Source: Asaia lannensis NBRC 102526 (lineage in GTDB: Bacteria; Pseudomonadota; Alphaproteobacteria; Acetobacterales; Acetobacteraceae). From it: a stretch of DNA of 64,000 nt. Below, in pieces: positions 47,428-48,481 of the stretch. The notes under the pieces were generated by a model, which worked only from the letters and a program-made list of their open reading frames with translations, ran no database searches and had not been told where the DNA came from. Made by a program: the position numbers and the translations under genes. The stretch lies in assembly GCF_024054035.1 (NCBI RefSeq), contig NZ_JAMXQU010000003.1:124001-188000 (forward strand), given 5' to 3'. Position 1 is the stretch's first letter. Each line of letters starts with the position of its first letter.

Positions 47428-47647
47428 GTGGACAGGGTCGGGGGACCATCGCCCCCGGCCCGATCTCCCTCACGATATCATGACCAAAACGTAACGGTCT
47501 CCTGAGACCGCTACGACCTTTCCCCTCTTTTCAATTCTGCGGTTGTCATCGACAATTCACGCTCAGATACATTTCGCCATGAGATGAGAGACTTCGCCAT
47601 GATGCGGTTGCAGCATGGCAAGGGCGAGACGATCCAGAGGGATGACA

Positions 47648-48481
47648 ATGCGTTCGATACGACCGGTCCGGTCCAACTGCCCCACCGGCCGTCGCGCCAT
47701 TCTCTCAGGCGGTATTGCCAGCCTTGCCGCGCTGCTCACGCTCGGGGCCGCGCCCGATCCGCATGAGGGGGAAGACGCCCATTGCGCCCCGGAACCCGAG
47801 CCCGGTCATGGCGACCGACAGGGCAAGTTCGATGAAAACGGCAGAATGCGTATCTGGCCGGGCAATACGACGATATGCCCGTTTCCTGTCACGCATCCCC
47901 TGGCGCAGGCCATGCTCGAGATGAACCGTCTTGTGACGACGCAGTACGCCGCTTATATCGCGCCGACGCCTCCCTCTAGCTACCATATGACCATTCTGGG
48001 CGGCGTCGATCCCGAGCAGATACAGAGAGGGACTCTTCCGGTCGGTATCGCGCCTTCCATGCCCCTCGATACGATCAACAGGATTCTGTGCGAGCGCCTT
48101 GCCAGGGAGCGGTTCGACATCCCGGAGAAGATCGAGATGGAGATCGATCCCGACAGGCACCATGCGCCTCTGGTCGGCGCGCCCTTGCGTCCTGCCAATG
48201 CGGCGATCGCAACGGCCCTCTACGATCTGCGCCGTCAGATTGCGGAATGCATGCAGTTCCATCCGGACGACCTGATGCGCTACATGTTTCACGCAACCTA
48301 TGGCTATAAATACCGCCATCTCCCCTATCATCTGAAACCCGGATTACGCAGCGCGGTGCATGAATGGCGACGCGAGGCGAGCGAGAGGCTCGGGGTGTTT
48401 ACAGTCCCCGCGCCTGTATTCTGCAGCTTCGAGACCATGGGCGCATTCACCCCACTTCTCGCGCTGCAAGGGCGGGCCTGA
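47648..48481 (+). CDS. Exported 2H-phosphoesterase-like protein (DUF1868-like)
   Basis: A 277-residue protein whose body begins GKFDENGRMRIWPGNTTICPF and holds two H-x-T motifs, SYHMTILGG near residue 116 and FHATYGY near 216, the hallmark of 2H phosphoesterases. The spacing and start resemble DUF1868. A twin-arginine signal is suggested by GRRAILSGG followed by a hydrophobic stretch ending LGAAP. ATG 47648 is preferred because GAGGG stands 7-11 bp before it; ATG 47615 and 47642 are in frame. 2H enzymes act on cyclic phosphates or RNA ends; the role of an exported one is unknown. Confidence 0.7.
   Translation: MRSIRPVRSNCPTGRRAILSGGIASLAALLTLGAAPDPHEGEDAHCAPEPEPGHGDRQGKFDENGRMRIWPGNTTICPFPVTHPLAQAMLEMNRLVTTQYAAYIAPTPPSSYHMTILGGVDPEQIQRGTLPVGIAPSMPLDTINRILCERLARERFDIPEKIEMEIDPDRHHAPLVGAPLRPANAAIATALYDLRRQIAECMQFHPDDLMRYMFHATYGYKYRHLPYHLKPGLRSAVHEWRREASERLGVFTVPAPVFCSFETMGAFTPLLALQGRA

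Follow-up and report, generated by a model that had tools for sequence, protein, structure and literature searches.

In Xanthomonas, the genes xanR (ROK), xanT (TonB-dependent transporter) and xanP (2H phosphoesterase, with H99/T101 and H204/S206) are grouped, and a xanR-like ROK gene is absent in some Xanthomonas (PMC12807533). XanP, which helps to feed this plant pathogen, cuts xanthosan, a sugar phosphodiester in which galactose phosphate forms a cyclic dimer, and releases galactose 1-phosphate (PMC12807533, December 2025). Here, we analyzed a DUF1868 gene located in a 64,000-nucleotide stretch of the Asaia lannensis NBRC 102526 genome (contig NZ_JAMXQU010000003.1, positions 124,001 to 188,000; hereafter the window), the product of which (the window protein) is, on balance, probably a periplasmic sugar phosphodiesterase exported by the twin-arginine translocation (Tat) pathway and working like XanP. 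That the protein is in fact exported, how it works, what class of substrate it cuts, what it releases and what role it plays are all inferred here; the substrate class (a sugar phosphodiester) is deduced from the genomic neighbours of its relatives and from XanP.

Among proteins in the PDB, the sole sequence relative of the window protein at E ≤1 is Atu0111 (2fsq; phmmer, E 7e-8), a protein of unknown function, which is also the best fold match of our AlphaFold2 model (Foldseek E 1.5e-16, Z 25.0). Both proteins share the same fold over 219 residues, with a root-mean-square deviation of 2.1 and with both HxT motifs aligned; however, their identity is 22%, and the phmmer alignment spans residues 70-285 of the 288-amino-acid frame, leaving the twin-arginine signal outside the match. 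The model itself has a mean predicted local distance difference test score of 83.7, with 204 residues at or above 90 and the first 55 residues mostly below 50. Next in rank among the fold matches are 2H-superfamily entries of the LigT-like, AKAP18, CPDase and Usb1 types, several of them with Z >10, and weak matches (Z 5.2-7.1) comprise Acb1, poxvirus cyclic GMP-AMP phosphodiesterases and CNPase. LigT/ThpR, CPDase, Usb1, AKAP18 and other 2H enzymes share the 2H fold with the window protein (Z 8.6-12.7) at 7-14% identity, but are RNA- or nucleotide-linked and not known to be exported. A further parallel is the agrocinopine system AccA-AccF of Agrobacterium, in which a sugar phosphodiester is imported and cut to a sugar phosphate, AccF being a glycerophosphodiesterase-type enzyme. 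AccA is the periplasmic binding protein that imports agrocinopine ahead of AccF cleavage (PMC7356202). It is to this system that we compare the DUF1868 forms devoid of a signal, which sit in operons combining ROK, ATP-binding cassette (ABC), DUF1868 and inositol monophosphatase genes.

The window protein matches PF08975 (DUF1868, 2H-phosphodiest) with an E-value of 2.9e-18 (66.4 bits against a cut-off of 21), which is far beyond chance, over residues 71-179 of the 288-amino-acid frame. Across 104 aligned relatives, obtained after removal of the short rows L053 and L101, the histidine and threonine of the first motif and the histidine of the second are kept in every row, and the last position of the second motif is threonine or serine in 103; as the rows had been chosen by motif 1, motif 2 alone constitutes an independent test. 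An earlier reading of this stretch from its letters only (the sequence-only reading) had recognized a 2H phosphoesterase in a DUF1868 frame with HMT and HAT motifs, and this enzyme class is well supported by the PF08975 match and the retention of both motifs; replacement of the HxT histidines in homologues, which would have spoken against it, was not seen in the relatives examined. NCBIfam yielded a single match to the window protein, far under cut-off (E 2), and tblastn returned no match to it among phage records.

The open frame spans 47615 to 48481 and offers three ATG codons ahead of the domain (47615, 47642 and 47648). The last of these, which was the start chosen in the sequence-only reading, appears the most plausible because an AGAGGG lies 6 nt before it (Table 1), giving an open reading frame (ORF) of 277 amino acids at 47648-48478. 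All three candidate starts retain the N-terminus with GRRAILSGGIASLAALLTLGAA, including GRRAILSGG at 47687-47713. The next in-frame ATG corresponds to the methionine of RMRIWPG within the domain, so that no downstream start removes the signal and leaves the domain intact. Tat signals were scored by a rule of our own (RR motif, hydrophobic stretch and start codon upstream), and the window protein shows all three features. Twin arginines followed by a hydrophobic stretch are found at the same place in 9/9 Asaia genomes, while the surrounding residues differ, and the same combination occurs in the Neokomagataea and L057 relatives. TatC is encoded in the Asaia genome bearing the window gene, and RRAIL matches the full Tat consensus in part only. 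The Tat signal proposed in the sequence-only reading thus holds, and predicted export of the window protein is well supported at the sequence level. In Gluconacetobacter liquefaciens (L114), the twin-arginine signal ends in a lipoprotein-like LPAC, with a receptor gene upstream and a ROK gene downstream.

A protein of the Xanthomonadales sample, L140, starts MSSLLDTRISRRHLMAAAG, carries a twin-arginine signal, matches PF08975 (E 1.2e-31) and, when read from its ATG, displays H99-V-T101 and H204-I-S206; in L141 and L142, the second motif likewise lies at 204. Judging from residue numbers, family and receptor, L140 would be XanP itself. Xanthosan use is described as occurring inside the bacteria, in a main text that contains neither 'periplasm' nor 'signal peptide' (PMC12807533); the twin-arginine signals of XanP-type proteins suggest that the compound is cut in the periplasm. 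The window protein has in common with XanP the DUF1868 family (if L140 is XanP), the two HxT/S motifs and the twin-arginine signal, whereas the motifs are spaced by 102 residues instead of 105, and the last motif residue is threonine instead of serine. In a quick tree of the 104 rows, a type with long branches whose details are unsure, the Asaia proteins cluster with those of Neokomagataea and an Acetobacteraceae isolate (Shimodaira-Hasegawa-like approximate likelihood ratio test, SH-aLRT, 97), and a split dividing the rows into 48 and 56 (SH-aLRT 98) leaves the window protein together with L140-L142.

Gene neighbourhoods were surveyed at 89 loci, namely 80 named loci, the window and 8 plasmid loci. 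Out of 106, the named loci are the 80 that most resemble the window protein, which biases class proportions toward it, and the plasmid loci represent 8 of 16 plasmid matches, one of them without annotation. A twin-arginine signal is present at 54 of the 89 loci and absent from 35. Our rule fitted 85 of the 89 sequences (51 with a Tat signal, 28 with none and 6 weak), and the 4 non-fitting and 6 weak sequences were assigned by eye, three to the signal-bearing class and seven to the class without signal. Export had been presented in the sequence-only reading as a peculiarity of this protein, a view that the frequency of the signal in this survey, biased as it is, does not support. Mapped onto the tree, the signal label changes 7 times, compared to a mean of 34 for shuffled labels.

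Neighbour counts come from tblastn (threshold 1e-5) with a set of 15 selected queries, the majority drawn from the same loci. A TonB-dependent receptor lies directly upstream on the same strand at 24 of the 54 signal-bearing loci (13 of 24 genus labels) versus none of the 35 others; among control ORFs, i.e. the other ORFs of the surveyed loci apart from the window and plasmid loci, the corresponding figures are 11/383 and 0/242. Within 6.5 kb, a ROK or LacI gene is found at 30/54 loci with and 13/35 without signal, a PAP2 phosphatase gene at 6/54 and 0/35, and a gene of the inositol-monophosphatase (IMPase) family at 0/54 and 7/35, respectively. Pfam and NCBIfam searches on representative neighbours identified TonB receptors, PAP2 (PhoC-like, under cut-off), MFS_2, ROK, LacI and the IMPase family. 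The layout of receptor, ROK/LacI and DUF1868 genes in relatives is that of xanR-xanT-xanP. The XanT-type receptor encoded upstream of L140 (L153) is 48% identical over 836 amino acids to the one adjoining DUF1868 in Duganella, and it shares 40-50% identity with receptors next to DUF1868 genes at 11 loci (8 genus labels) outside Xanthomonas; at L154, the second XanP-type gene checked, no XanT-type receptor was found in the 2.9 kb upstream.

Individual loci show further neighbours, some of them linked to galactose. In Pantoea (L072:5801-8759), a signal-bearing DUF1868 gene directly follows genes for galactofuranose permeases of the YtfT and YjfF types (above cut-off), and L082 contains the same cluster. 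At L118:5473-10344, genes for a solute-binding protein, galT (GalT above cut-off), DUF1868 without signal and a Na/Pi cotransporter follow in a row. In two Pseudomonas loci (L062 and L065), a TonB-ExbB-ExbD-type set, typed by Pfam at L062 only, separates DUF1868 from its receptor, and a PhoD gene (Pfam) and a GDPD gene are found at L096 and L069, respectively. On annotated plasmids, the arrangement comprises ROK, solute-binding protein, permeases, UgpC, DUF1868 and inositol monophosphatase in Rhizobium etli and Alloyangia; ROK, ABC genes and DUF1868 in another Rhizobium; LacI, ABC genes and DUF1868 in Deinococcus; and ABC genes, GDPD, ROK and DUF1868 in Kosakonia. None of these arrangements was seen at other plasmid loci. 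Some neighbour ORFs in GC-rich loci were discarded as antisense artefacts (cluster 109, L058 and L091); the cluster-109 ORF of L058 has no Pfam match, and the tblastn GDPD match there lies on the opposite strand.

According to the model that we favour, Tat would export the window protein to the periplasm, where it would hydrolyse, by a two-histidine mechanism, a small phosphodiester (a sugar phosphodiester being the likeliest candidate), releasing a sugar phosphate that other enzymes could then use for carbon or phosphate. Because no XanT receptor is found beside the window gene, this substrate may be something other than xanthosan, or it may be taken in through another receptor or a porin.

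Several observations weigh against a XanP-like role, or against equating the window protein with XanP. Among the relatives, the receptor is not directly upstream at 30 of the 54 signal-bearing loci. At the window gene, no TonB receptor lies directly upstream and no ROK or LacI match occurs within 6.5 kb, and this genome contains neither a XanT-type receptor match (some exist in 4/9 Asaia genomes, one of them long) nor a galT_1 match; another receptor type gives 16 match places in it, some of them pieces of one gene. In other Asaia species, a receptor gene lies downstream of DUF1868; it was considered as a XanT partner and rejected, having no match to the XanT-type set and resembling siderophore receptors most closely (5fok, E 2e-86). 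At the protein level, the window protein and L140 are 28% identical over 178 columns, and the window protein keeps 26 and differs at 12 of the 38 positions that a set of 13 XanP-like or receptor-linked members has in common. Position 78, a histidine in 75/104 rows, is a proline in the window protein and 14/104 rows. Finally, our literature search found no assay for any protein of the window protein's branch. We would not file the window protein as XanP, because the neighbour features of the XanP system that were tested are not found around its gene.

One alternative put forward in the sequence-only reading is nucleotide scavenging, by which an exported 2',3'-cyclic nucleotide phosphodiesterase would open the cyclic ends released by extracytoplasmic RNA breakdown. 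Its fold relatives LigT, CPDase and Usb1 act on cyclic nucleotides or RNA ends; however, the recurrent neighbours that were typed (receptor, sugar-type transporters, ROK/LacI, GalT and galactofuranose permeases) suggest sugars, in a survey that included no systematic search for RNase or nucleotidase genes. XanP was inactive on NAD, NADP, ATP, ADP, GTP and GDP, a list that does not name cyclic nucleotides (PMC12807533). With the gene neighbourhoods of relatives and the published work on XanP both pointing to sugar phosphodiesters, we regard scavenging as unlikely. An equally improbable scenario is that the protein opens cyclic phosphates or diesters produced by phospholipase C or glycerophosphodiesterase, such as inositol 1,2-cyclic phosphate, from which a monophosphatase would then free the phosphate. 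A PI-PLC-C1 gene is indeed divergent from the receptor-DUF1868 pair at L057, among the closest non-Asaia relatives, a GDPD gene lies within 1 kb at L058, L069 and L091, another adjoins DUF1868 in Kosakonia, and IMPase family genes are found next to some signal-less forms. Nevertheless, PI-PLC occurs at 1 of the 89 loci, no PI-PLC or GDPD-type gene adjoins the window gene, and GDPD-type enzymes fit sugar phosphodiester pathways as well.

The lack of a XanT-type receptor match in this genome would also agree with an enzyme that modifies a phosphorylated constituent of the bacterium's own envelope without any uptake system, a kind of role likewise raised in the sequence-only reading, as would the presence of the gene in 9/9 Asaia genomes compared to 11/244 genomes of the family sample outside the genus. 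We give this explanation little credence: relatives adjoin uptake genes, and the window gene is surrounded by ilvD, LysR and other metabolic genes rather than envelope genes. Still harder to accept is that the enzyme acts inside the cell, its N-terminal stretch being a membrane anchor or a chance feature. Signal-less rows, for instance those of Komagataeibacter, do occur in the same half of the tree, and the signal was called by our own rule instead of a trained predictor; yet the twin arginines and hydrophobic stretch recur in all nine Asaia genomes, Neokomagataea and L057, and signal and receptor operons go together.

Beyond the sugar phosphodiesterase proposed here, we tentatively suggest, as a generalization that we hold with less than even confidence, that Tat-exported DUF1868 enzymes form a widespread periplasmic class digesting sugar phosphodiesters, and that in Asaia and its kin the enzyme would have turned to another phosphodiester, perhaps flower- or insect-derived, with the histidine at the side of the pocket replaced by proline. 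If so, XanT-XanP-like pairs outside Xanthomonas, for example in Sphingomonas, Novosphingobium, Azospirillum, Nitrospirillum, Duganella and Janthinobacterium, would imply that xanthosan-like compounds occur commonly in nature, an effector of Xanthomonas not being their only source. Use of such compounds may extend well past one group of plant pathogens, because XanT-type-like receptors adjoin DUF1868 at the 11 loci outside Xanthomonas described above. PMC12807533 is apparently the sole paper on xanthosan that our literature search found, and no paper using the name DUF1868 or PF08975 was found; DUF1868 is still labelled a domain of unknown function, and the XanP link supplies testable chemistry for the family.

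Table 1. Coordinates of the DUF1868 gene and its features (positions in the window).
Feature	Position	Strand	Basis
DUF1868 2H phosphoesterase gene, 277 amino acids plus stop	47648..48481	+	ORF list, Pfam match
AGAGGG, likely ribosome-binding site, 6 nt 5' of ATG47648	47636..47641	+	sequence
Twin-arginine signal region, residues 1-35; RR at 47690-47695	47648..47752	+	RR in 9/9 Asaia genomes
2H phosphoesterase domain, residues 60-277	47825..48478	+	Pfam, model, fold match
Pro78, His in 75/104 relatives	47879..47881	+	alignment
First catalytic motif, H113-M-T115 (HMT)	47984..47992	+	sequence, alignment of 104
Second catalytic motif, H215-A-T217 (HAT)	48290..48298	+	sequence, alignment of 104

The window gene is flanked by ilvD upstream and a LysR gene downstream, neighbours that say nothing about sugars. 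A search around the gene found no sigma-70-like promoter, and the one terminator-like site near it, on the minus strand, is close to chance (shuffle mean 0.6).

Across genome samples, which overlap, DUF1868 was detected in 9/9 Asaia genomes, 16/249 of the family, 21/299 of the order, 4/385 of the class and 16/398 of the phylum, as well as in 8/250 genomes of the order holding Luteibacter and in 0/14 control genomes. Seven Asaia copies are intact, and third codon positions differ most in all 21 pairs of these, indicating that the protein is under selection. In the two other copies (L009 and L010, from genomes G001 and G006, 88 and 95% complete), the frame breaks off within the domain, by either draft error or decay.

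On an E. coli IncFIA plasmid (L131; NZ_CP070073.1, 50282-64977), a DUF1868 gene with a twin-arginine signal lies near pemIK and microcin B17 genes, and similar DUF1868 matches occur in three further E. coli plasmid records. The Komagataeibacter DUF1868 genes (L067, L070, L073, L075 and L083) encode no signal and adjoin a secretory-lipase-like gene, and those of Novacetimonas and Gluconacetobacter entanii (L096 and L099) are located behind a PhoD phosphatase gene.
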